A stretch of 20,872 nt of DNA from Pararhodospirillum photometricum DSM 122 (GTDB taxonomy: Bacteria > Pseudomonadota > Alphaproteobacteria > Rhodospirillales > Rhodospirillaceae), in the NCBI RefSeq assembly GCF_000284415.1, contig NC_017059.1:1557213-1578084 (forward strand), in the 5' to 3' direction. The notes under the pieces were generated by a model. The model was not told where the DNA came from, ran no database searches, and was given only the letters and a program-made list of their open reading frames with translations. The translations under genes were made by a program, and so were the position numbers. The first letter of the stretch is position 1, and every line of letters starts with the position of its first letter. This document shows, one piece after another, positions 2,409 through 20,872 of this stretch.

Positions 2409-3377
2409 GTGACCGAAGAGGGAGGCCCACAAGAAGAAGGTATCGGCCGAGCACGCTCTTGGCTGGCAGGCCTTTTTGTGAGGTCCATATCCTCGCTACG
2501 GCCAAGCAGTAAGCAAGATATCGCCGACTGGCTTTATCACTCCAAAGAAATCCTTGAGGGCGACGGGAGCAAGGCCGAAAAGGCCAAAGAGCTATCCAGG
2601 TCTATAGACGGCAGGGAGTCCGCTTCGCTTTTTGTTCGAGGCATCGTTGAGGCAATCAAATCCTACAAGGACGCCCCCATACCGATGTCCCTCAAGGTTG
2701 CCATCCCAATAACTGCTGTTGCCACGCCGGTTTTCTGGGGTCAAGGCGTCGGGGTTGCGGCGTTTGGCGGGGCTGTTGGGCTCCCTGCCTTGCTGCTGGT
2801 GTTTCTTGGGTCGGCGGGGATCGGCGCTATCCTGGACGACATTTCCCGCACCCCCGCTGGCGCTGTGCCTCTGAGCGTGATGATCCTTGAGATCATCGCC
2901 CGGGGTGAAATTGCAAGGCGCACAACGGCAGCAATGAAGGAGGCTATGCGGGCCGAACCGATCCGGCCTCGCCGCGCAGCGATGCCGGTCGATGAGGCCG
3001 AGACCCGCAAGCGCCTCATGAAGATGGATCCCTACGCCTTCGAGGCTCACGTCGTAAGCTTTTTTGAAGCCGAAGGCGTGCGTGCGTGGGTCACGAAGAA
3101 GTCGAACGACATGGGCGTTGATGGCTTTGTTGACGGCCCGGACGGCCTGATCGTCATCCAATGCAAGCGGTACGCACTAGACAACTTGGTTGGCGCTCCG
3201 GAAGTCCAGCAGTTCAAGGGCGTAATTGAAGAGAATGAGGCACTTAAAGGATACATTGTCACCACGTCCTATTTTTCTACACCAGCCCAGGCTTCGGCAG
3301 CAAAATCCGATCGTGTGGTGTTGGTGGATGGGGACGAGTTGATCCGATGGCACCGCGAAGAGCGTGTGACTAGGTAA
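2409..3377 (+). CDS. Membrane-anchored Mrr-type restriction endonuclease
   Basis: The product is 322 residues from GTG 2409, with GGGAGGAGC placed immediately upstream. Residues 1-90 are helical and charged. Residues about 94-148 (MSLKVAIPITAVATPVFWG to VFLGSAGIGAIL) are hydrophobic and can form two membrane segments. A linker follows, then an Mrr catalytic domain from about 198: DPYAFEAHVVSFFEAEGVRA, the D of MGVDGFV, the Q-x-K motif in VIQCKRY, and the typical NLVGAPEVQQFKGVI helix. D...QxK is the PD-(D/E)xK core of this family, which cuts foreign or modified DNA. Membrane anchoring is not part of the classical soluble Mrr. A defence role is inferred from the domain and the accessory setting; the trigger is unknown. 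Confidence 0.82.
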   Translation: MTEEGGPQEEGIGRARSWLAGLFVRSISSLRPSSKQDIADWLYHSKEILEGDGSKAEKAKELSRSIDGRESASLFVRGIVEAIKSYKDAPIPMSLKVAIPITAVATPVFWGQGVGVAAFGGAVGLPALLLVFLGSAGIGAILDDISRTPAGAVPLSVMILEIIARGEIARRTTAAMKEAMRAEPIRPRRAAMPVDEAETRKRLMKMDPYAFEAHVVSFFEAEGVRAWVTKKSNDMGVDGFVDGPDGLIVIQCKRYALDNLVGAPEVQQFKGVIEENEALKGYIVTTSYFSTPAQASAAKSDRVVLVDGDELIRWHREERVTR

Positions 3378-10053: not shown

Positions 10054-10745
10054 TTAACTCGGCGACGGCAAGGCGATGTGCAGCATGCCGAAGCCAAAGG
10101 CCTTTTGCCGCCCGATCCCTTCCTTCAGGGCTTTCGCGAAGGCAGCCGGGGCGGTGACGGTGAGCTCGCCCTGGAAGCTCAGGCTGCCCACGGTGATGGG
10201 CGAGCGGCCCTTGTTGGGAAAGCGGTGACGCTCGTAGCGCAGGACGCGGGTCTGGTCGTGGTCAAGGTCAAAGCCCAAGACGGCCCCTTGGCGGGCCAGC
10301 CAGTCGCGCCCTACCGGATCGGCGATCTCGTCGGGCGACACATGCCGCTGGCGCTCGGCAGGCAAGGCTTTCCATTCGGCCATCACGGCGTCGTGCGGCC
10401 GTCCACGCTGGCCGGACTGGGCGGCTTTTTCCCACTTGGTCGCCACGGCATTAAGGGCAAAGGCCAAGCGTAGGCCGGATCTCAAAGCGGGCTGAAAGGG
10501 AAGGGTTTCGATCTTCCAGCAGCCCAGCCCATCGACCGGTTGGCGCTCGGAGCGGACCAGGGCCTGGAACGGCTGGCGCTCGGTGACATGAAACAGGAAA
10601 TCCCGCGAGGCGTCGGGAGCATCGGCGAACAAAGTCCAAATCAGCTTGTGGGCAAAGCTGGGGTCGTCGGCCCGCATCCGAGGACCGACCAAGGCAAAAA
10701 AGCCTGGGGGTTGGGCGGAAGCAAGGTGACACGGCTTAGGAACAT
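10054..10745 (-). CDS. cas6e: Cas6e (CasE/Cse3) crRNA endonuclease, frameshifted near its start
   Basis: Cas6e cuts the pre-crRNA at the repeat hairpin and stays in Cascade. The start at ATG 10745 gives MFLSRVTLLPPNPQAF, the standard N-terminus, but this frame then stops early. The rest of the protein is in the next frame: FALVGPRMRADDPSFAHKL, DASRDFLFHVTERQ, and the glycine-rich end GIGRQKAFGFGMLHIAL. The switch falls in a run of six A on the plus strand (10696-10701, T on the coding strand). One more T restores a 230-residue protein. The histidine of SFAHKL is a plausible catalytic residue. The start overlaps the cas5 stop by 10 bases, implying coupled translation. As written it is a broken gene; slippage or a sequencing error would restore it. 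Confidence 0.85.
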
Positions 10746-11572
10746 GGCATGACTCCCTGGGCCTCGGAGCGCACGGCAAAGCGACGCCCCCCCTGATCGA
10801 CGGCCCCCTCGGGGACCACCAGATGGTCGCGGCGTTCGACCAACCGGGCGACCGCCCCGTCCAGGCCGGGAAAATCGGGATCGCTGAGAAAACGGCACTC
10901 GGACCGCTTCTCCTCCCGGAAAGCAAGCCAAGAAGCCAGGGCCGGATGGCGGGAAGCGACGCCGCCATAGGCCGCCAAGGCCGCCAAGGGCCCGCTGGCC
11001 TCAACAAGGGCGGGATCGGGCGGCAGCCCCAGCCCAAACGCCTTGCGCCCGGCGTACAGCGGGAAGACAGGAGCCCGCAAGGCCGCCGCCAGCCCCGGCA
11101 GATCAACCCCCGCGTCCCCGTCGGCGCGCAACCGCACCACCACGGTCCACAGGCCCTCGGCCAGGATTTCCCGGCGAGAGAGCAAGGCGCCCCCGCTCTC
11201 CCCCCCGGCGAGGTCGGCGCGCAACTCGTCGAAGCGACTCATCGGCGATCGGCCCGGAGGCCGCGCCCCCTTGCGCACCGAGCGACTCATCGGCGAGCGG
11301 TCGGGAGGCCGGGTCCCCTTGCGCACCGTATGAAAGTCGGGCGCCGGTTGAACAACGGGCTCATGGTCCACCCGCACCGCCAGCAGCAGCCCAGCCGCCA
11401 GCGGCCCCAACCGCCCGCGTTCCCAGCCCAGCGCCGCCCCCAAAATCCCGACCACCGCCGACTTGCTGGGCGCCGTGTCGGTGGCCTTGTAGGCGGCATT
11501 GCTCGACGACAAGGTGGGGCTGCCCCACGCCCCCAACGGGGCCAAAAGCGTGAAAACCAGATGGCTTGCCAT
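10736..11572 (-). CDS. cas5: Cas5e (CasD), Cascade subunit
   Basis: The product is 278 residues, longer than E. coli CasD (224). In Cascade, Cas5 caps the 5' handle of the crRNA. The N-terminus MASHLVFTLLAPLGAWGSPT followed by APSKSAVVGILGAALGWERG is typical: the first RAMP strand and the PSKSAvvGllgaALG helix. The C-terminal half has EILAEGLWTVVVRLRAD and VFPLYAGRKAFGLGLP, the glycine-rich region. Between residues about 81 and 112 an in-frame duplication repeats VRKGxRPPxRSPMSR twice. The gene starts 9 bases after the cas7 stop and its end overlaps cas6e, so it is part of one operon. Confidence 0.93.
   Translation of the reverse strand: MASHLVFTLLAPLGAWGSPTLSSSNAAYKATDTAPSKSAVVGILGAALGWERGRLGPLAAGLLLAVRVDHEPVVQPAPDFHTVRKGTRPPDRSPMSRSVRKGARPPGRSPMSRFDELRADLAGGESGGALLSRREILAEGLWTVVVRLRADGDAGVDLPGLAAALRAPVFPLYAGRKAFGLGLPPDPALVEASGPLAALAAYGGVASRHPALASWLAFREEKRSECRFLSDPDFPGLDGAVARLVERRDHLVVPEGAVDQGGRRFAVRSEAQGVMPCS
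11234..11329 (-). repeat. 48-bp tandem duplication inside cas5
   Basis: Two direct copies (11234-11281 and 11282-11329) match at 42 of 48 positions. They encode VRKG(T/A)RPP(D/G)RSPMSR twice. The length is a multiple of three, so the frame is kept. The six differences show the duplication is not brand new. Confidence 0.9.
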
Positions 11573-11581
11573 GGCGCTCCC

Positions 11582-12838
11582 TCAGGCCGCGCCGACCGTA
11601 TCGACCGCACCGACCGTCTCGGCGACAAACCGGTGCACCGCGTCCACCGTCCACACCTCTGGCGCGGTGGGTGCGTTGCCCTCGCGCAGTGACGGGGCGG
11701 CGGCAAAGATCAGTGGTTCAAGGGACAGGTCATAAGCGGTGCGCACGGTGTCATAATACTCGCGCAGGCGCTTGGCACTCACCGCCAACAGGTCCTGGCC
11801 CTTTTCGGGCACCACGGGCTCAAGAAAAGCCAGGGCCGCATTGAAGCTGGGGGCAGTGCCTCGGCTGCATAGCAAGTACGCGGCCAGAACGTCCGAGGCA
11901 TAGCTGTTGCGCTTTCCCCCGGGCTGGGCGGCCAGCAAGCCATTAACGAAGGCCAGGGCCGCCTGACGCGCCCGGTCTTTGCCCAGCGACTGGCACAGCG
12001 CCCCCACGTCCAGCACCGCATGCTGATAATAAACGCCAGAGCCAAAAAACGCATAAGAGGTGTGAGCTGCGCCGGTTTCGCCCAAATCTTTGAGTTCTTC
12101 GGCTGCCGAAAAGTAATCACCCTCAATGCTGAAGCGATGGGTCGTGATAGCATGGCTTACCATGCTGGTGGCCTCGACGTTGTGTTTAGCATCGGCCGCC
12201 ACCATGCGACCGAATAGTACCGTATCCTCGTCTAAGTCCTCTTTTGAAAGCAGACTCTTCTTCTCGCACAGCTCGGCACAGAGAGTTTCAGCCTTCTTCC
12301 AAGCATTCTGGCCCGCCTCTCGACAAGCTGCGGCCAAGGTTTTCGTCCAGGCGTCCAGCTTCACCATCTCCTTGGTACTGATGACGAGCGCCTGAGCACT
12401 GCGCAACTCCTCCTCCAGAACGTACAACCGAGCCGTTTTCTCATCGCAGGCCTGTTCCGCCTGGATGCGGGCGATATTGTCCCTGCTCTTCTTCTCCTCC
12501 AAAGCTTTCAAAAACTCGGCCACGGTCTTCTTCTGCGGCTTCTTCCCCCCGCCACCCAGGGCAAAGTTGACCGACAAAGCCGCCAGGATGCGGATCTTTT
12601 CGTCCTCCACCCCAGCCTCGCCCAGGGCGCGCCATGTTATGATCCCGGTTTTGCGGGTGCGGGTAGCACGTTGCAGATCCTGGAAGTGGGGGGACAAGCG
12701 AATGGCCCGTTTTTTGGCCTGGCTGGAAATCCGCCCGCGTACTGTCCCCCCGAACATAGCGGTCTTGGGGCGGCCGTCCTCGTCGCGGTTCACGTTGTGG
12801 GGCGGGTAGACGGTCAACACATGAAAGTCCAGCTTCAT
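11582..12838 (-). CDS. cas7: Cas7e (CasC/Cse4), Cascade backbone subunit
   Basis: The product is 418 residues; E. coli CasC has 363. Six Cas7 copies line the crRNA in Cascade. The N-terminus MKLDFHVLTVYPPHNVNRDE, followed by KTAMFGGTVRGRISSQAKKR, is diagnostic (FGG..R.RiSSQ..KRA). Later landmarks are SHAITTHRFSIEGDYFSA, GAAHTSYAFFGSGVYYQHAV and GGKRNSYASDVL. Residues about 95-205 form a long, charged, helical insert (KKPQKKTVAEFLKALEEKKS onwards) where the E. coli protein is shorter. The start at 12838 is chosen because homology begins there; the upstream frame only reads through the palindrome at 12886. The gene follows cse2 after a 103-bp gap. Confidence 0.95.
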   Translation of the reverse strand: MKLDFHVLTVYPPHNVNRDEDGRPKTAMFGGTVRGRISSQAKKRAIRLSPHFQDLQRATRTRKTGIITWRALGEAGVEDEKIRILAALSVNFALGGGGKKPQKKTVAEFLKALEEKKSRDNIARIQAEQACDEKTARLYVLEEELRSAQALVISTKEMVKLDAWTKTLAAACREAGQNAWKKAETLCAELCEKKSLLSKEDLDEDTVLFGRMVAADAKHNVEATSMVSHAITTHRFSIEGDYFSAAEELKDLGETGAAHTSYAFFGSGVYYQHAVLDVGALCQSLGKDRARQAALAFVNGLLAAQPGGKRNSYASDVLAAYLLCSRGTAPSFNAALAFLEPVVPEKGQDLLAVSAKRLREYYDTVRTAYDLSLEPLIFAAAPSLREGNAPTAPEVWTVDAVHRFVAETVGAVDTVGAA

Positions 12839-12885
12839 CGTGGGATCCTTCCCTTGGAGGGCGATCAAGGTAAGAAAAAGGAAGG

Positions 12886-12907
12886 CTGGGGAGGCGGGCC
12901 TCCCCAG
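12886..12907. repeat. Dispersed palindrome inside the Cascade operon (cse2-cas7 gap)
   Basis: CTGGGGAGGC (12886-12895), GG, GCCTCCCCAG (12898-12907) is a perfect 10-bp inverted repeat flanked by AAGGAAGG and CCCCTCCATTCCTTAAG, matching the copy at 18077 over a longer span. It occupies the only sizeable gap in the operon. Confidence 0.75.
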
Positions 12908-12941
12908 GCCCCTCCATTCCTTAAGAGGAAAGGGATGGGCT

Positions 12942-13472
12942 CTAGGCGTCGGCGGGGGCGGTTTCGTAATAGTCAAGAAAGACTGTTCGACGCGCCCATA
13001 GTCGGCCGTTCGGATGCTCCCAGGACAACACCAGATCGGCCAGGGCTGCCACGTTCACTTGGCGATCAATCTGGTCCACGATCCCGCGCAGCAGGCGCAG
13101 GAACTCGTCCGGGTCCTCTGATCCCAAGAGCAGCCGCAAGCGGTCGGACGACACCAAGGCCTTGCCCCGGACTCCAAGGCTGGCGGCCCGGCGAGCCAAG
13201 GATACCTCGTGATCTTCGTCCACCTCGGCCACGGCCACAGCCACTCGGGCCAAGGCCATCGTGCTAAACGAGGCCAGGGGCAACAGATGCAGGCGCAGGC
13301 GGGAAAATGCTTCCTCCGGCCACACATCGTCGAGACTTTGCGCCCGGCGCAGGGCAGCCCGGGCGCGGCGGTCGTCGGCCAACCTTGCGTGCCATGCCTT
13401 AAGGACGGGAAGTGTGGTGGTTGCCGACTCTTCCTTGGAAAAGTTCAAATATTTTGCGCGTTCAGAAGACAT
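12942..13472 (-). CDS. cse2: Cse2 (CasB), Cascade small subunit
   Basis: The product is 176 residues from ATG 13472. Cse2 forms a dimer that holds the displaced DNA strand in the Cascade R-loop. The protein is all-helical and basic: LPVLKAWHARLADDRRARAA, LRRAQSLDDVWPEEAF, then DPDEFLRLLRGIVDQIDRQV and VNVAALADLVLSWE near the end. These match the conserved R..LRRa.s......a......L and the C-terminal d...La.dl..w features of the family. Its ATG overlaps the cse1 stop (TGATG), indicating coupled translation. The frame extends upstream by 16 residues inside cse1, but ATG 13472 is the natural start. Confidence 0.9.
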   Translation of the reverse strand: MSSERAKYLNFSKEESATTTLPVLKAWHARLADDRRARAALRRAQSLDDVWPEEAFSRLRLHLLPLASFSTMALARVAVAVAEVDEDHEVSLARRAASLGVRGKALVSSDRLRLLLGSEDPDEFLRLLRGIVDQIDRQVNVAALADLVLSWEHPNGRLWARRTVFLDYYETAPADA

Positions 13473-15205
13473 CAGGGCGAAACCTCCTTCTTCTTCCGCT
13501 GGGCCGGGGGCACCCCCCATAGATCTTTGCGCAAGTCGCGTCGGGCCTGGGCGATAGCCCGGGCCGAGGCGTCGGGGAACGAGAGGGGAAACGCTTCATC
13601 AAACAAATCCAGAGCCTTCTTCCGCGCCTGCTGGAGCAAGGCGTCGCGCACGGCGGCTCGGGCCACGTCGGGATCAGGATCGCGCAGGCTCTCAATGATC
13701 TGAGGCAAGGCGGCCAGTACGGGCCCCTCCAGGGAGCGCATCAAGGCATCGGATAATTGGCCGGGCAGCGTGGGGCGCGCGTCCGAGTTGCCGGCCTTGA
13801 GCACAGTGGCGGCACGGCGGGCCAGCGCCCGCGCCACATCGGCCACCGCGCGGGCCAGATGGGTAGCGTCGCTGACCACACTCAGCCGCGCGTCGCCAGC
13901 CACGGGATACAAGGGCAAGCTCCGCTCCGACAGTCCATCAACCTGCTTATCGGAATCTAAGTAAAACAAGGTGATGACCTTGATTGAGAAGGGGAGTTCC
14001 GGGGTCGGCGCCGAAATCACCGCCGCTTGCTCACCTGTCACGTTTTCAAAGGCATCCACCAGCTCCCCCAGGCGCCCGGCCAGAGCCCGAACCACAGGAG
14101 GCGAATGGACAATCACACCACTCTTACCTTCAGGCGGGGGAGGCTCATGGCCCAAAGCGGGGGAAAGCCAATCCTCCAGCCGCAAGGGGCTTGAGGCCTG
14201 GGCATACCAGCGCCCTTGCGACCGCCCCTCGGCATCAATCTTTTCCAGAGGGGCCACACAGGGCCAGACCCAGCCCTCTGAACTGTAGGAGAGCCCTTGG
14301 GTCCAACGCTGATAGGTTTCGAACACCCACCCCACTTCCCCGCTCAAACCACAAACCCCTTGGCGGGGAGGATCGAGTAGATAACGCCGGGGCATAACAA
14401 ACCCGGCCGGATGGCGGTCGCCGATCCCAACGGGAATAACCGTTTCCAAAACCTTTTGCTTAGCTTCAGTCCTCTTCTTTTTCAGGTGTTCGGTTTGTCT
14501 CCCAAGATCAAGCCGCCGAACATCTTCCCGGAGCCACGGGAAAGCTCGTCCATCCATAGGTACCGGCCAAAGCGCCTTGTGATCCCTTGATAGATCCAAG
14601 ACATTTAACCACAGAGTTTCCCATAAAGTTCGGCCCCGGACCTGATATTTTGGGGAGTGATTTTTGTGCGGAACCCCCAAATAACCACCACCTCCCGTGC
14701 AAAATAAAGCATTATCAGAATACAACAATGGAGCCAAAAAAGCTGCATGCAGAGCGACTGCGCATCCTCTTTTAATAAAAAAATCCCTGTGTTTTTCTTT
14801 TGCACCTTCTGTCGGAGCATCAAAAAAAAGCACGCCTAAATTCTGAGGTTTAGACTCCCACGCACTCAGAGGCTTGACCTGCAAAAACGGGGTGTCGCTG
14901 CCCCACAAGACGAAGGCCTCGCGGTAAGGGGCCAAGGCGTCTCGCAGTGCGGCGGGCGACGGGGGATCGAACAGGCGCTGGCGCCACGTCCGCTCGTCGG
15001 GCGGCGGGTAGGCGATTTGCAAGATGTGGGTCGCCAGCAACTCGAAACTCAGGGCCAGCAGCGGATGGGGGCAGTCCAAGCCCATCACCGGATCCTCGCG
15101 CCCCCCGGTCAAATCGGCAAAGCAGACCCGATCCCGCGCCCCGCTACGTCGCACCACCGGCAGGAGCACATCAAGCCATTGGAGAGGAGCCAAGCTCTCG
15201 TCCAT
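13472..15205 (-). CDS. cse1: Cse1 (CasA/Cas8e), Cascade large subunit
   Basis: The product is 577 residues, against about 500 for E. coli CasA. Cse1 recognises the PAM and recruits Cas3. The first residues (MDESLAPLQWLDVLLP) follow a GGGGAGGGG ribosome binding site, though the usual start of the family (a N-L-L-x-D-x-W-I-P motif) is not clear. Landmarks are LLALSFELLATHILQIAYPP, WGSDTPFLQVKPLSA, the glycine-rich LFCTGGGGYLGVPHKN with the TLWETLWLNVLDL helix, and the four-helix-bundle C-terminus with repeated alanine-rich helices. It is the first gene of a minus-strand operon and is divergent from cas3 with 92 bp between. DNA encoding residues about 110-190 is AT-richer than the rest. Confidence 0.93.
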   Translation of the reverse strand: MDESLAPLQWLDVLLPVVRRSGARDRVCFADLTGGREDPVMGLDCPHPLLALSFELLATHILQIAYPPPDERTWRQRLFDPPSPAALRDALAPYREAFVLWGSDTPFLQVKPLSAWESKPQNLGVLFFDAPTEGAKEKHRDFFIKRGCAVALHAAFLAPLLYSDNALFCTGGGGYLGVPHKNHSPKYQVRGRTLWETLWLNVLDLSRDHKALWPVPMDGRAFPWLREDVRRLDLGRQTEHLKKKRTEAKQKVLETVIPVGIGDRHPAGFVMPRRYLLDPPRQGVCGLSGEVGWVFETYQRWTQGLSYSSEGWVWPCVAPLEKIDAEGRSQGRWYAQASSPLRLEDWLSPALGHEPPPPEGKSGVIVHSPPVVRALAGRLGELVDAFENVTGEQAAVISAPTPELPFSIKVITLFYLDSDKQVDGLSERSLPLYPVAGDARLSVVSDATHLARAVADVARALARRAATVLKAGNSDARPTLPGQLSDALMRSLEGPVLAALPQIIESLRDPDPDVARAAVRDALLQQARKKALDLFDEAFPLSFPDASARAIAQARRDLRKDLWGVPPAQRKKKEVSP

Positions 15206-15297: not shown

Positions 15298-18042
15298 ATG
15301 GATTGCCTGCAACGCTGGGGCAAGGCGGGCTCCACACCCTGGCACCGCTTGACCTACCATGGCCTAGACGTGGCGGCGGTGCTGGACGCCGCCTTTGAGG
15401 CTTGGCCCGGACTCCTGGAAGCCCTGGCGGCCGGCCTGGGCTTGGCCCGCGACGACACCAGACGCCTGCTCTTGATGGTCCTGGCCCTGCACGATCTGGG
15501 CAAGGTATCGGGAGCGTTTCAGCACCTGCGCCCCGATCTGGCCGAAGCCCTGGGGGTCAAGGCGACGGTCGCCCCCTATGACCGCCGCCAAGCGGGACAC
15601 GACACCCTGGGGTTTGTGCTCTGGCGAACCTTGTGGCGCGACGCCAAGCGCGGTCTCGGCCCGGCCCCCGCCGTCCGAACCGAGTTCAGCCGCGTCGCCG
15701 CCCTCATCGCCGCCGCCACCGGCCACCACGGGGTACAGCCGCCCACCACCGGACCGACCCTGAGCCAGTTCAGCCCATGGCTAACCGACGCCGATCTGGA
15801 GGCGGCCCAGGTTTTTCATGAGGAAATGCGGGCCTTGTTCGCCCCGTCCGGCGCGTTGCCCACGCAAGAGGCCTGCGAGCGGCTGTCCTACACCCTCAAC
15901 GGCCTGTTTTCCGTCTGCGACTGGCTAGGCTCGGCCGAGGCCTTTGCCTACCACGCCGAGCCCCTCGACCTCGCCGACTATTACAACACCCACGCCCAGC
16001 CCACCGCCCGCCGCCTGCTGGCCGATCTGGCCCCCACCGGCATGACACCGCCCGCCCCGGCCCCGCTGCTCGACTTCGCCGCCCTCTTTCCCGGGCTGGC
16101 CAGCAGCCCCACCCCCTTGCAAGCCGCCTGCGCCCGCCACGTGGACCCCGCTGTCCTGCCCGAAGGCGCCCTCCTGGTCATTGTCGAAGACGCCCCAGGC
16201 GCCGGCAAAACCGAGGCCGGCGACCTGATCATCCATCGCCTGCTCACCGCCGGCCGCGCCTGGGGGTTCTATGCCGGCCTGCCCACCACCGCCACCGCCG
16301 AAAGCGCCTTCCAGCGCAAGAAAGACGTGCTAGAGCGCCTGTTCGCCACCATCCCCTCGTTCATGCTCGCCCATGGCCGACGCGCCCACAGCGAGGCCTT
16401 CCACGCCGTCGCCAGCCGCGCCGCCCTCGAAACCGGCGAAGGCGACGCCCAGGCGTGGTTCACCCAAGGCAGCAAACGCGCCTTGCTCAGTCCAGCCGGC
16501 GTCGGCACCGTGGACCAAGCCTTGATGGGCGCCCTGCGCGTGCGCCATGGCCCGGTGCGCCTCTGGGGCCTGTGGCGCAAGGTCCTGCTGGTGGACGAAG
16601 TGCACGCCTACGACGACTATATGCTGGGCGCCCTGGAGCAGCTTTTGCGCCACCACGCCGCCCAAGGCGATCCCGCCATCTTGATGTCGGCCACCTTGCC
16701 CACCCGCCTGCGCGAACAACTGGTCGCCGCCTTCGCCGACGGCGCCGGCTGGCCCAACCGCGCCGCGCCAAGCACCGGGTCACAGGCCTTCCCCCTCCTC
16801 ACCCTCCACCACGCCCAGGGCCGCGTGGAAACCCCAGTCCCCCTACGCCAGCCCGCCCGCCCGGTCCACCTCCAGGCCCAGCACGCCGAGGCCCCCCTCG
16901 AGGATGCGGTGGTCGACTGGGCCAGCCAAGGCCGCTGCGTCGTCTGGTTTCGCAACACCGTCCACGATGCCCGCGCAACCGCCCAAGCCTTGGCCCCGCG
17001 CTTGACCGAAGCCGGCCTACCACCCCCCCTCTTGTTCCACGCCCGCTACCTCCCCCACGACCGCGCCCGGATCGAACGCACCGTGCTAGCCCTGTTTGGC
17101 AAGGACAGCACCCCCGCCGATCGGGCAGGACGCGTTCTGATCACCACCCAAGTGGCCGAACAAAGCCTGGATCTGGATTTTGACGAGTGGATCAGCGATC
17201 TCGCCCCCGCCGACGTCGTGCTGCAACGCCTGGGCCGCCGCCGCCGTCATGCCCGCGATGCCCAAGGCGCCCGCCTTCCCCAAGGCCACGCCGACCAGCG
17301 CCCCGATAGCCCCGCCTTCCTCCTTATGCCCCCTCTCGACGACGCCGACCACGCCGGCCCCCAAGGCTGGCTCGCCCGCGTCCTCCCCCGCTCCCAGCGC
17401 CTCTACCCCGACGACGCCCGCCTATGGCTCGGCGCCCGCCATCTCATCGACCCCACAACCATCCCCGGACGACCCAGCACCGGCCCCCTGAAACCCGAAG
17501 AAGACGCCCGCCCCCTCCTGGAAAGCGTCTACGCCGAGACCAATACCCTGTGCGCCAACGTCCCCCCAGCCCTGCACCCCCGCCATAACCAAAACGAGGG
17601 AAAAGGCGTGGCCGAGCGCGCCCAAGCCCGGCACAACACCCTGGCCTTTCGCAACGGCCTGCTCCAAGACTGGCAAGAGAACGGCATCCTCGGCTCCAGC
17701 CCCGACGAAGAGCATCCCCCAACCCGCCTCGGAGACTCCGCCCCCGTCGCCCTCGCCACCCACCGCGACACCGGCCCCGCCTTCCTTGGCGAGGATCTCG
17801 ACCGCTCCCTTCTGCGCGTCCCCCAGCCCCTCCTCCCCCCAGCCACCGACCAAGCCTTTCTCGATGCCCTCGCCGCCCTCCTGCCCCTCGCCCAACGCCG
17901 CCGCCTCTCCTTCACCCCGGTTCTGTGCCTCACCCCCGATCCAGACAACGGATGGGTCGGCTCCGGCCTTTACAACGGCCGCCCTGTTCAGGTCCGCTAT
18001 GCCTGCGATGAAGGGTTGTCGTGGGTTTTCGAGAAGACGTGA
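15298..18042 (+). CDS. cas3: Cas3 helicase-nuclease
   Basis: The product is 914 residues. Cas3 is recruited by Cascade and degrades the target strand. The N-terminal HD nuclease domain shows H21 in YHGLDV, H65-D66 in LALHDLGK, H101 in AGHDTLG, H143-H144 in ATGHHG and D208 in SVCDWLG, a full set of metal ligands. The SF2 helicase domain shows Walker A APGAGKT (299-305), DEVH box LLVDEVHAYDDYM (433-436), SAT in LMSATLPTRLREQ (464-466), RVLITTQVAEQSLDLDFD, and motif VI QRLGRRRRH (643-651). A C-terminal accessory domain follows. The start at 15298 has a good ribosome binding site. The gene is strongly C-rich in the third position. It is divergent from cse1, so it can be regulated separately from the rest of Cascade. 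Confidence 0.96.
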   Translation: MDCLQRWGKAGSTPWHRLTYHGLDVAAVLDAAFEAWPGLLEALAAGLGLARDDTRRLLLMVLALHDLGKVSGAFQHLRPDLAEALGVKATVAPYDRRQAGHDTLGFVLWRTLWRDAKRGLGPAPAVRTEFSRVAALIAAATGHHGVQPPTTGPTLSQFSPWLTDADLEAAQVFHEEMRALFAPSGALPTQEACERLSYTLNGLFSVCDWLGSAEAFAYHAEPLDLADYYNTHAQPTARRLLADLAPTGMTPPAPAPLLDFAALFPGLASSPTPLQAACARHVDPAVLPEGALLVIVEDAPGAGKTEAGDLIIHRLLTAGRAWGFYAGLPTTATAESAFQRKKDVLERLFATIPSFMLAHGRRAHSEAFHAVASRAALETGEGDAQAWFTQGSKRALLSPAGVGTVDQALMGALRVRHGPVRLWGLWRKVLLVDEVHAYDDYMLGALEQLLRHHAAQGDPAILMSATLPTRLREQLVAAFADGAGWPNRAAPSTGSQAFPLLTLHHAQGRVETPVPLRQPARPVHLQAQHAEAPLEDAVVDWASQGRCVVWFRNTVHDARATAQALAPRLTEAGLPPPLLFHARYLPHDRARIERTVLALFGKDSTPADRAGRVLITTQVAEQSLDLDFDEWISDLAPADVVLQRLGRRRRHARDAQGARLPQGHADQRPDSPAFLLMPPLDDADHAGPQGWLARVLPRSQRLYPDDARLWLGARHLIDPTTIPGRPSTGPLKPEEDARPLLESVYAETNTLCANVPPALHPRHNQNEGKGVAERAQARHNTLAFRNGLLQDWQENGILGSSPDEEHPPTRLGDSAPVALATHRDTGPAFLGEDLDRSLLRVPQPLLPPATDQAFLDALAALLPLAQRRRLSFTPVLCLTPDPDNGWVGSGLYNGRPVQVRYACDEGLSWVFEKT

Positions 18043-18076
18043 GGGCCCCGGAAAAAAGGCCACGAGGAAAGGAAGG

Positions 18077-18099
18077 CTGGGGAGGCGCGGCCTCCCCAG
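18077..18099. repeat. Dispersed palindrome after cas3
   Basis: CTGGGGAGGC (18077-18086), GCG, GCCTCCCCAG (18090-18099) is a perfect 10-bp inverted repeat 34 bp after the cas3 stop. The flanks GGAAGG on the left and ACCCCTCGATTCC on the right match the copy at 12886. It may act as the cas3 terminator. Confidence 0.75.
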
Positions 18100-18558
18100 A
18101 CCCCTCGATTCCTTTAGAGACGGAAAATCCGTGTTTCTCGTCTCCAGAACGGGCGAGAAAAGGGTGGTCCGGCGAAGCTGCCTCCGCCCGGACCCAGCCG
18201 CCCCCCTAGGGCAGCCGGCAGCGGCTTCGGCATAGGGCGGCATGAGAGGAGTATGGCGCCTCTCCTCAGAGAGAGGAAGCAAGCGCAGAGCCCCTTGCTC
18301 CAAAAACGCCGCGCACCACCCTCCCAGACTCAGGGGCTTTGCCTCTGCAAGCAGGGGACACGCGACGTGGGATTTCTCTACACCATCGGCCAAGTTGACG
18401 GCAGGAACCCTCTACCGTCAACCACTCCACCGCCTTGGGAACCCAGGGTCGAGTCAGCAGCGGGGCTAGCAGTCAGATTATAGAGGGTGTTGCCACCTCC
18501 GACCACTACCAAAAACCCCGCCCACGCGCAAAAGCACTCCTTGGGGTAAAGTGACCTT
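18100..18558. other. Non-coding gap between cas3 and the first CRISPR array
   Basis: No credible gene is present. It holds several small inverted repeats: TTTCTCG (18134-18140) with CGAGAAA (18154-18160), GGTCCGG (18166-18172) with CCGGACC (18188-18194), and GAGGAG (18245-18250) with CTCCTC (18260-18265). cas3 is transcribed into it from the left and the array from the right, so some of these may be terminators. No clear degenerate CRISPR repeat was found. Confidence 0.5.
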
Positions 18559-18709
18559 GGGTTCATCCCTGCGCATGCAGGGGATACGAGGGGTCGCACC
18601 TCCTCGGCCATGAGGGGGAGGGTTCATCCCTGCGCATGCAGGGGATACGCGGCGGGAGTGATCTTCGAGGCCGAGGGCGAGGGTTCATCCCTGCGCATGC
18701 AGGGGATAC
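18559..18709 (-). CRISPR. CRISPR array 1, three repeats and two spacers, reads leftwards
   Basis: Repeats lie at 18559-18587, 18620-18648 and 18681-18709 and are identical, with two 32-bp spacers (18588-18619, 18649-18680). On the minus strand the repeat reads GTATCCCCTGCATGCGCAGG followed by GATGAACCC, a type I-E repeat with a CCCTGC/GCAGGG hairpin. Orientation is fixed by the leader to the right, next to the cas2 end. The newest spacer should be 18649-18680. No decayed terminal repeat is seen. Confidence 0.97.
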
Positions 18710-18758
18710 CCTCCCTGTAAGGGATTGGCAGGAATGGGGGAATGAGTCAAGGACTTTC
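18710..18758 (-). promoter_or_regulatory. Leader of CRISPR array 1
   Basis: These 49 bp are identical to the leader of array 2 (20192-20240) in inverted orientation. The leader overlaps the last 12 bases of cas2. TTGACT (18750-18745, minus strand), a possible -35, contains the cas2 stop codon. CCCTTACAGGG lies just before the first repeat and is a small dyad. Array transcription probably starts here. Confidence 0.7.
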
Positions 18759-19055
18759 CGTGTTCTTGGTCTTTGTTATCAACATATAAATGCCGTCGCG
18801 TTCGACGACGGTTCTTTTGGGGACTCCCAAGGATCGGAAGTCGAGTCCCATGGGTTTTTCCTTGGCTTTATACATCATAAGGAGGGTTCCCTGGGGTTCG
18901 GCGTTCCACCAGCCCTCGAGGATGGTCCAAACGCGCTCTCGGCTTCCCGCGTCCAGGGTCACGCTGACATAGACCCCGGGATGGGGATTGAGCATGCATG
19001 AGCGCAGGAAGCCATGGACCCGATCCACCGTGTTGGACGCGCAAATGAGGATCAT
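18747..19055 (-). CDS. cas2: Cas2 (type I-E), spacer integration
   Basis: The product is 102 residues. Cas2 dimerises and bridges two Cas1 dimers in the spacer integrase. The sequence follows the type I-E form: MILICASNTVDRVHGFLRSC, PGVYVSVTLDAGSRERVWTI with the conserved GVYV strand, GTLLMMYKAKEKPMGLDFRS, and DGIYMLITKTKN. The start ATG overlaps the cas1 stop (TGATG), so the two are translated together. The stop codon is only 37 bases from the first repeat of array 1, so the leader partly lies in the 3' end of this gene. Confidence 0.95.
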   Translation of the reverse strand: MILICASNTVDRVHGFLRSCMLNPHPGVYVSVTLDAGSRERVWTILEGWWNAEPQGTLLMMYKAKEKPMGLDFRSLGVPKRTVVERDGIYMLITKTKNTESP

Positions 19056-19906
19056 CAGGCCAGAATCTCCTTGATGTCGTCGATCACGGTATCAATCAGG
19101 GAGGAGCGGGTCAGGGCGCGGGCCATCATCAAACGAACCACACGCTCCAAACGCTGGTTGGGATGGCGACCCTCGTTGATCTCGCGCACGGCCCGAAAGG
19201 CCAGGGGAACAGTAACCGTGGTCCGGTAGAGATCGCACAGGTCCAAGGTCCAGGCGATGCCGGGAGCCTCGTGGAGAAAGCCCAGTTGGGGCACCGTGCC
19301 CGTCGCCGCCACACCGATGGCGACCGCTGCCTCCAAGGCTGTGACCGCGTGATTGATGGCTTGGTTGGGGAGATCGGCCGCCTCTGGCGCACCGCGATCG
19401 AAGTGACGGCCTTTCCAGTCGATTTTTTCCTGCGCCGCCAACAGTTCATACGAACGTTTGATCCGCTGCGCCTCCATCCCGCGCAAAGCATCCAGAGAAG
19501 AAACGCGGGGCCGCTCGCCAAAGCGCTTCTCGTACATCCGCAACGCAACCATCAACCGCGTGGTGTCCGAGGCAAAATAAACCGCCTGCTTGTGGGCAAG
19601 ATCGGCGGAACGCTCAAACAGCGGCGGCGCCGTATAAAGCCGAGTCCCCTCACTCCCTACCGCCATGAAGGCGGTGCCATGCGCGGAAAGATGACGGATC
19701 GCGTCGTGCGTGATCGTTGTGCCGGGCCCCAAAAGAATGGCACTCACCGCCTGATAGGGAAGCTCTGCTTCTTCCCCACTCTCGTCGTAGCGCAGGGTCA
19801 GGCTCCCGTTATCAATAGAGAGACGGCAGTATTCAAGATAAACAAGCCCATGACGGCTTTTATGAGGAATGCGCGCCTTTTCAAGCCCTAGCCTGCCCTT
19901 CAGCAT
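19055..19906 (-). CDS. cas1: Cas1 (type I-E), spacer integrase
   Basis: The product is 283 residues. Cas1 is the catalytic subunit that inserts new spacers at the leader end. The N-terminal beta domain reads LVYLEYCRLSIDNGSLTL to AVSAILLGPGTTITHDAIRH. The catalytic helical domain shows metal ligands E145 (RGMEAQRIKRSYE), H212 (LGFLHEAPGIAW) and D222/D225 (TLDLCDLYRT), matching E. coli E141, H208, D218 and D221. It is transcribed on the minus strand with cas2 only, not with the Cascade genes, which suggests its own control. The E. coli proline-rich C-terminal tail is absent. The start at 19906 is preceded by GGGGCAG. Confidence 0.97.
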   Translation of the reverse strand: MLKGRLGLEKARIPHKSRHGLVYLEYCRLSIDNGSLTLRYDESGEEAELPYQAVSAILLGPGTTITHDAIRHLSAHGTAFMAVGSEGTRLYTAPPLFERSADLAHKQAVYFASDTTRLMVALRMYEKRFGERPRVSSLDALRGMEAQRIKRSYELLAAQEKIDWKGRHFDRGAPEAADLPNQAINHAVTALEAAVAIGVAATGTVPQLGFLHEAPGIAWTLDLCDLYRTTVTVPLAFRAVREINEGRHPNQRLERVVRLMMARALTRSSLIDTVIDDIKEILA

Positions 19907-20191
19907 GGTCTGCCCCGGATATTCCCTTAAAGATTTTTACATCATTCAAAATGACCAACAACGAGCACAAACGCAATCCATCAACCGATCTTGTCCCCAA
20001 ATTTTTTCCACCCCCCGCGACCTTGCCGCCCCCGCCCAGGCAGCCCCTTAAGGACCACCCCTCTCAAGGCTTCATGAAGAATCCCATCTTAAAAAAGCCC
20101 ATGGAACTCCCCCCCAATCCTTCCCCCCTCCCCGACTCTCCGTGTAAAACGCCCCACCATTGCCCCATTAACAACAAACCCCAAGAACCCT
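19907..20191. other. Non-coding gap between cas1 and array 2, C-rich on the plus strand
   Basis: No credible gene is present. From 19981 to 20220 I count about 106 C against 28 G on the plus strand, with long runs of C and A. On the minus strand TTGTTG (19961-19956), 16 bp and TAAAAA (19939-19934) form a weak candidate promoter for cas1. The right end (about 20165-20191) is a decayed copy of the cas2 3' end. Confidence 0.5.
19934..19961 (-). promoter_or_regulatory. Candidate cas1-cas2 promoter
   Basis: TTGTTG (19961-19956), a 16-bp spacer and TAAAAA (19939-19934) match 4 of 6 positions in each box. It lies in an AT-rich patch 28 bases upstream of the cas1 ATG. No other good pair was found nearby. 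Confidence 0.3.
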
Positions 20192-20240
20192 GAAAGTCCT
20201 TGACTCATTCCCCCATTCCTGCCAATCCCTTACAGGGAGG
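20192..20240 (+). promoter_or_regulatory. Leader of CRISPR array 2
   Basis: These 49 bp are identical to the leader at 18710-18758, inverted. They contain TTGACT (20200-20205) as a possible -35 without a good -10, and CCCTTACAGGG just before the first repeat. Similarity to the cas2 end continues leftwards with mismatches to about 20165. Confidence 0.7.
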
Positions 20241-20634
20241 GTATCCCCTGCATGCGCAGGGATGAACCCTGGTCCGCAACCCGCACATCGACGCGCAGCG
20301 AGTATCCCCTGCATGCGCAGGGATGAACCCAGGACTCTGATCTGTGGCCGCAGATGCGCTACGTATCCCCTGCATGCGCAGGGATGAACCCAAGGACTAT
20401 ATCGTGCCATTTCCCGCGCTGCTGTATCCCCTGCATGCGCAGGGATGAACCCTATGGGACCTCGCGGCCACAGTCGGGAATGACGTATCCCCTGCATGCG
20501 CAGGGATGAACCCTCGTGGGAGAAGCTTGGTGTCCAGGGGGACTTGTATCCCCTGCATGCGCAGGGATGAACCTGACGCTCTCAAGGCCGACCAGAAAGA
20601 CGTCATGTATCCCCTGCATGCGCAGGGATGAACC
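20241..20634 (+). CRISPR. CRISPR array 2, seven repeats and six spacers, reads rightwards
   Basis: Repeats start at 20241, 20302, 20363, 20424, 20485, 20546 and 20607, a regular 61-bp period with 32-bp spacers. All seven share the same 28 bases. The 29th base is C in the first five, T in the sixth and A after the last. The repeat CCCTGC-ATGC-GCAGGG hairpin is the expected Cas6e target and would leave an AUGAACCC-type 8-base handle. The leader side is on the left, so the spacer at 20270-20301 should be the newest. None of the spacers matches another part of this window by eye. Confidence 0.98.
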
Positions 20635-20701: not shown

Positions 20702-20872
20702 TACAATACGCCCGTGGATCACCCTATGCCGAGACCGCCGCCGGTCCTCCTAGGGGGGCGATCTGGCCCGGGAGCGGCGGCGTCTCCCGGGCCGCCCTGT
20801 CCTCAACCCGACCTACGCCACAGCAGCGTCCCGTGGCGCACTATGCCCGCATGGTTACGAGTGGTGAGAGCA
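20702..20872 (+). ncRNA. Possible structured RNA gene at the right edge (6S-like?)
   Basis: No reading frame of useful length is present. TACAAT (20702-20707) is a good -10 box with a weak -35. Downstream are a strong hairpin with GGCCCGGGAG and CTCCCGGGCC arms (about 20767-20796) and a second with CGCCAC and GTGGCG arms (about 20815-20838). TCACC (20719-20723) can pair with GGTGA near 20865. The order of GGGCC, CCTGTCCTCAACCCGA, GTGGCGC and GGTGAG elements vaguely resembles enterobacterial 6S RNA. The identity is uncertain and the 3' end lies outside the window. A protein gene starting beyond the edge is also possible. Confidence 0.25.

Follow-up and report, generated by a model that had tools for sequence, protein, structure and literature searches.

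Several CRISPR arrays of one repeat within a genome are common, accounting for 25% of arrays in the accessible part of a cross-genome analysis (PMC12814883), where arrays that share a repeat are inferred to be updated about equally wherever they are located, and where type I-E loci with two arrays carry one on each side of the cas genes, almost exclusively in the same orientation. In E. coli and Salmonella, one type I-E cas locus is accompanied by a second array, and the leaders of CRISPR1 and CRISPR2 are partly alike; as far as the accessible text on them goes (PMC2886076), the two arrays point in one direction, a cas2 relic is not mentioned, and duplication of CRISPR1 as the source of CRISPR2 is considered and left open. 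The same text has CRISPR3/4 of E. coli flanking cas genes (PMC2886076). For the type I-A system of Sulfolobus islandicus, the accessible sections report that both loci acquire spacers upon induction of the adaptation genes and that one forward primer served for both leader-proximal regions (PMC4333418). How an extra array came into being is mostly conjectured from the spacers that it has in common with another, and such spacers do not persist for long.

The locus described here lies at the end of the window, i.e., the whole stretch of 20,872 nucleotides of Pararhodospirillum photometricum DSM 122 that was analysed. It resembles the E. coli-type I-E systems of the Azospirillum/Telmatospirillum/Geminicoccaceae branch in gene content, Cas1e and Cas2e, repeat length, 61-nt period and the position of a putative IHF-like site, and its cas3 is divergent from cas8e, likewise the case in loci L053, L054, L055, and L088. 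It departs from the I-E arrangement cas6-cas1-cas2-leader-array in three respects: the unit cas1-cas2-array 1 has been separated from cas6 and is found past cas3, another array upstream of cas1 faces the opposite way, and one leader family is common to four arrays. Unlike the arrays described for E. coli and Salmonella, the second array here is inverted and carries a cas2 relic, and in contrast to arrays such as CRISPR3/4 of E. coli, the pair is of type I-E and flanks cas1-cas2 only. S. islandicus also combines one adaptation module with two loci, but its subtype and leader differ, and the use of both loci is experimental there and inferred here. Arrays 1 and 2 point apart and so do not take the common, same-oriented two-array form; because I-E pairs are almost exclusively same oriented in the accessible part of PMC12814883, an outward pair around cas1-cas2 alone is an unusual form. 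Duplicated arrays are ordinary in type I-E; what is unusual is that the pair diverges and that four arrays share a leader family.

A single Cas1-Cas2 most probably serves four arrays, array 1 being the original and array 2 and two distant arrays, B and C, descending from a copied piece. The dead cas2 end in a leader is a datable birth mark, which separates parent from copy without shared spacers; the literature searched contained no account of such a relic in a CRISPR leader. The relic also delimits the functional leader without experiment (about 50 nt kept, the rest decayed), and the four arrays, with leaders that show 0 to 9 differences in 49 nt, are a natural test of how one Cas1-Cas2 splits new spacers.

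Cas gene content and layout

The locus is a complete type I-E CRISPR-Cas locus, with NCBIfam matches above the models' own cut-offs for cas8e, cse2, cas7e, cas5e, cas6e, cas3, cas1e, and cas2e; for cas3, it is the cas3_core and HD domain models that exceed the cut-off, and the full-length I-E Cas3 model falls below it. On the minus strand lie cas6e (cse3/casE; scanned stretch 10054..10800, open frame to 11106), cas5e (casD; 10736..11572), cas7e (cse4/casC; 11582..12976), cse2 (casB; 12942..13520), and cas8e (cse1/casA; 13472..15205). They are followed by cas3 on the plus strand (15298..18042) and, again on the minus strand, by cas2 (18747..19055) and cas1 (19055..19906), recognised by the Cas2e and Cas1e models.

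Some minor features accompany these genes. The cas5e gene contains an in-frame 48-nt tandem duplication (window 11233-11328; 16 codons of the RKG-RPP-RSPMSR type). The intergenic stretch at 18069-18114 is a multicopy palindromic element (GGGGAGGC..GCCTCCCC), part of the 57 matches listed for the query stretch with 40 of 803 candidates scored, so that the total is probably higher. A 51-nt inverted pair, 76% complementary, brackets the two-array block (18187-18237 and 20722-20772), and related copies occur at 902,968-903,045 and 1,578,298. The product of window positions 2409-3377 has a C-terminal nuclease domain of Mrr-like type and weakly matches type IV restriction models. To the right of array 2 (L026:4253-5463), inspection by eye picked out open reading frames that resemble lysis genes of phages, one for a GH108-like lysozyme and the one next to it.

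Two outward-facing arrays with identical leaders

Array 1 (18560..18709, minus strand) consists of three exact 28-nt repeats, GTATCCCCTGCATGCGCAGGGATGAACC, beginning at 18560, 18621, and 18682, and two spacers of 33 nt. Array 2 (20241..20634, plus strand) has seven exact copies of the same repeat, beginning at 20241, 20302, 20363, 20424, 20485, 20546, and 20607, with six spacers of 33 nt, and the repeat period is 61 in both. Array 1, behind cas2, reads left, and array 2, upstream of cas1, reads right. The preliminary description of two arrays facing outward around cas1-cas2 is correct in coordinates and in substance, with exact repeats on either side and matches to the Cas1e and Cas2e models between them, and sequence comparison confirmed the identical 28-nt repeats and 49-nt leaders that it had reported.

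Identity between the two leaders extends over exactly 49 nt before the first repeat (leader core 1, 18710..18758, minus strand; leader core 2, 20192..20240, plus strand). Counting also the repeat and two bases beyond it, the arms span 79 nt with 0 mismatches (18680-18758 versus 20192-20270), and a repeat search reports them as a 108-nt inverted repeat that is 93% complementary. The arms are inverted and lie 1.4 kb apart, and their identity far exceeds chance. The core of array 1 overlaps its neighbouring gene: the distance from the cas2 stop codon to the repeat is 37 nt, and the remaining, upstream 12 nt of the 49-nt leader are cas2 coding sequence, comprising the last codons and the stop.

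A single array next to cas2 in relatives

Relatives' loci were taken as the best 80 of 191 Cas1-encoding stretches (230 candidates), fetched with a Cas1 alignment. In these, the order cas6-cas1-cas2 is universal (80/80), and 70 of the 80 have an array within 2 kb behind cas1; none of them (0/80) carries an array built of its own repeat in the 1.5 kb upstream of cas1. One apparent upstream array (L059) consists of a 20-nt unit that does not resemble the repeat of that locus and was classed as a minisatellite. In the nearest named relatives, with Cas1 identities of 62 to 66%, cas3 likewise diverges from cas8e...cas2. The gap between cas2 and the start of the array measures 37 to 45 nt in three of these four, and in L055, an open cas2 frame extends into the first repeat. 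A scan of 83 loci gave 73 rows after the 10 without a cas2-adjacent array had been dropped (L032 and L082, which are the same contig, were both kept).

In all three of the distinct close genomes searched for the repeat, every match (33, 26, and 27) falls in one array, next to cas2. A fourth entry turned out to duplicate one of these genomes and is not counted. The single-array ancestor for which the preliminary description had proposed a search in related genomes is thereby found. A single array linked to cas2 is thus the ancestral state, and array 1, which descends from it, is the parental array. The block array 1-cas2-cas1 now lies beyond cas3 and no longer behind cas6, with its orientation relative to cas8e-cas6 unchanged.

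Cas1 proteins at 77 to 83% identity were found in Caenispirillum salinarum and on short metagenome contigs. Among 385 genomes drawn from the class, this genome was the only one with a Cas1 match at an E value of ≤1e-100, and no plasmid match was obtained at an E value of ≤1e-70. Near recJ, the sister species lacks a cas1, cas3, or cas6 of this type. Its I-E system is a different one (G001 contig 56, L031:11487-12334); the cas1 of that system is matched in two frames that overlap, one of the matches containing a stop codon, and may be broken or misassembled. By eye, the leaders of relatives look too different to polarise changes in the leader core.

Four arrays of one repeat on the chromosome

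The repeat occurs 20 times chromosome-wide: 10 times in the window, three times in array B, six times in array C, and once alone. Array B has three exact repeats (chromosome 752,665-752,814) and array C six (chromosome 3,252,482-3,252,814), and the numbers of spacers are two, six, three, and five in arrays 1, 2, B, and C, respectively. All 16 spacers are 33 nt long and follow a 28-nt repeat, which agrees with the palindromic repeats of 28-29 nt and spacers of about 32-33 nt of type I-E. A 99-nt query from leader 2 had four matches on the chromosome at an E value of ≤10, one in the leader of each array (1, 2, B, and C). The locus is thus part of a four-array system, two arrays of which lie outside the window to which the preliminary description was confined.

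The 49-nt cores of leaders 1 and 2 are identical (49/49), and that of leader 1 agrees with B at 44/49 and with C at 40/49 positions. Core identity among the four leaders ranges from 40 to 49 of 49, versus 12 to 22 of 27 further out, and all 19 repeats in the four arrays are intact.

Two further details concern these repeats. In array B (L022, ∼752.6 kb), the third full repeat is followed by a 33-nt spacer and then by only 11 nt of a fourth repeat, which ends at the tip of its palindrome. The lone repeat, with one mismatch (minus strand, chromosome 2,147,655-2,147,682; L024:7656-7683), has neither leader nor array; it adjoins a 23S-5S-tRNA-Met cluster, lying behind it and convergent to it, and may be what is left of an array or else an ectopic copy that serves a different function.

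The flanks of arrays B and C differ. For the gene adjoining array B, a search without positive control gave no match in the three genomes tried. The aminotransferase flanking array C is present in the sister species without the other C-flank gene beside it.

A cas2 relic in the leaders of arrays 2, B, and C

Beyond the core, the leaders of arrays 2, B, and C track the coding sequence of cas2, with substitutions and small indels. The relic upstream of leader 2 (20093..20191, plus strand) still reads KPMEL... in one frame but has no open cas2 frame; it copies, in decayed form, the 3′ part of cas2 at about 18761-18859 (minus strand). A profile built from leaders 2, B, and C over −160 to −50, with the core excluded, was scanned against 94,077 nt of this genome, and cas2 was the only good match (18859-18761, minus strand; E value of 9e-9, next match 0.5). 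With −73 to −50 removed as well, cas2 still matched at 0.0012 (next, 0.26).

Individually, upstream of −49, leader B matches cas2 with a score of 81 and leader 2 with a score of 42, neither of which was reached by any of 1,000 dinucleotide shuffles. The score of leader C, 25, was reached by 120 of 1,000 shuffles and is not significant alone. Leader C scores 105 against leader 2 and 71 against leader B, compared to a best of 39 in 200 shuffles, and it is through this match to leaders 2 and B, not to cas2 alone, that C is counted with the cas2 relics. A shared core together with a recognisable cas2 3′ end, taken as the marks of a copied leader and array, was thus found for leaders 2 and B individually and for the joint profile of leaders 2, B, and C. 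Shuffles and profile speak clearly against an independent origin of the leaders, which the preliminary description had named as fatal to its reading; the leaders are kin through the cas2 relic.

The matched codons (KPMG and following) are conserved in the Cas2 of relatives, and since they belong to the part of Cas2 common to them, the direction of copying is from cas2 to the leaders. The reverse, in which cas2 was extended over a pre-existing leader so that its tail is leader derived and the other leaders hold no cas2 relics, could be suggested by the position of the last cas2 codons inside the conserved leader core. It is scarcely credible given that the homology reaches these core codons, well before the tail.

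On the preferred reading, a stretch running from the 3′ end of cas2 through the leader into at least one repeat would have been copied, giving rise to array 2, which lies inverted beyond cas1, and to the distant arrays B (at about 753 kb) and C (at about 3253 kb). Being noncoding, the cas2 portion of each copy would decay, and a core of ∼50 nt with the IHF-like site and the leader-repeat junction would be kept; relic, conserved core, and the single-array state of close relatives are the observed parts of this scheme. The three arrays may trace back to one founder copy, a proposal based on seven columns in −100 to −74 where leader 1 alone differs. The source of the relic could also be a closely related cas2 of another strain instead of the resident gene.

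An alternative is that the extra arrays were not copied in this genome but arrived horizontally from other strains with the cas2 remnant already attached. The differing flanks of B and C, the separation of the C-flank gene pair in the sister species, and the divergence of the relics from resident cas2 (33/50 or less in −150 to −101) speak for such transfer. Against it, the repeats are identical in all four arrays, the cores are near-identical, and the repeat, with ≤2 mismatches allowed, occurs in one other genome among 317 of the order, a single-array relative; we regard transfer as very unlikely.

Whether the copying route is a general one was addressed at six other I-E loci with second arrays (L076, L094, L095, L104, and L106, with one each, and L124 with two). 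A cas2 relic scored above shuffles at none of these seven second arrays (0/7), and the route may not be general. Some of these seven may be interrupted parts of a main array.

Possible inversion and exchange between the inverted leaders

The preliminary description suggested that the inverted leaders could allow inversion of the cas1-cas2 segment by recombination. The anatomy does permit this, with 79 bp of inverted identity, but the sole assembled orientation is that of the ancestral cas2-array 1 linkage (37 nt here; 37 to 45 nt in relatives where measured), which leaves inversion unsupported. Nor is inversion needed to account for the layout, as the array 1-cas2-cas1 block keeps its ancestral orientation and has merely moved behind cas3.

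The pattern of differences among the four leaders bears on the same question. Columns split two against two group leader 1 with leader 2 in four of four cases within the core; upstream, they do so in two of eight, the other six pairing 1 with B and 2 with C. The difference between core and upstream columns has a P value of 0.06 and is not significant. Exchange between the two inverted leaders, by gene conversion or by crossing over, could account for the small excess of core identity between leaders 1 and 2; so, equally well, could selection on the core.

An invertible adaptation cassette, in which recombination between leaders flips cas1-cas2, so that cas2 reads into array 1 or array 2, and homogenises the cores, would agree with the perfect arms 1.4 kb apart, with the column pattern and with a core identity of 49/49 versus 44/49 and 40/49. 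The single assembled orientation with its ancestral linkage, the column test, and the equal standing of selection count against it, and the 317 genomes of the order include no second strain for comparison; we consider such a cassette improbable. A combined scheme, in which cas1-cas2 flips (or the two sites trade leader cores and leader-proximal spacers) while the piece of cas2 end, leader, and repeat disperses and seeds fully served arrays, is likewise improbable.

Probable shared adaptation of the four arrays

In E. coli, Cas1-Cas2 is directed to the leader-repeat junction by an IHF site located at −9 to −35 together with an element located at −50 to −55, and the protospacer-adjacent motif (PAM) supplies the final base of each new repeat, according to the accessible part of PMC10011333. 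An IHF-like match of 7/9 consensus positions begins at −21 in all four leaders here (−21 to −9 in leader 1, 18718..18730, minus strand, and in leader 2, 20220..20232, plus strand), a score that for a single leader was reached by 179 to 233 of 500 shuffles and is thus not significant leader by leader. Sites were scored against nine positions of the IHF consensus. Of the best 80 relatives' loci, 66 yielded a leader, and matches of ≥6/9 are found at −22/−21 in 46 of the 66 versus 1 of 66 at −45/−44, with a sharp peak at −22.

A second character common to the four arrays is the base after the 28-nt repeat, which is C in 14 of the 16 spacers. In three relatives, this base is C in 31/32, 24/24, and 24/25 spacers. 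The E. coli I-E protospacer-adjacent motif is AAG, and with C rather than G as the first spacer base, the motif of this system is probably not AAG. The first spacer base could also be copied from the repeat instead of being set by the PAM.

Conserved cores, an IHF-like site at one offset, and a common first spacer base together support a shared adaptation module. IHF would bend each of the four leaders, and Cas1-Cas2 would insert spacers at all four leader-repeat junctions. The preliminary description had envisaged one module feeding two competing integration sites. Its interpretation is in part borne out: sequence features support the shared module, and the candidate sites number four rather than two.

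It is unlikely that arrays 2, B, and C have fallen silent after an earlier period of filling, with spacer acquisition continuing at array 1 alone (or at none). All four arrays are short (2, 6, 3, and 5 spacers), array B ends in a truncated repeat, and the eight window spacers gave no convincing viral match. When the 20-nt cores of these eight spacers were compared with viral_contigs, seven had no match; the one match to a viral contig ends after the seed stretch without extending and was not accepted. At the threshold used, no spacer match outside the spacer's own array was found in the examined stretches of this genome. The cores and all 19 repeats are nevertheless intact while the adjoining cas2 relic has decayed, which suggests continued use, and array 2 is longer than array 1.

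The genome contains a second type I-E system (L025:10072-19890; chromosome ∼2.386-2.396 Mb; cas3-cas8e-...-cas1), with a 14-repeat array of a different repeat. Its first spacer base is G in 13 of 13 spacers, a difference from the four arrays with a P value of 2e-6. Such a pattern would be expected if a single Cas1-Cas2 with a particular PAM preference filled the four arrays and the second system were restricted to its own array.
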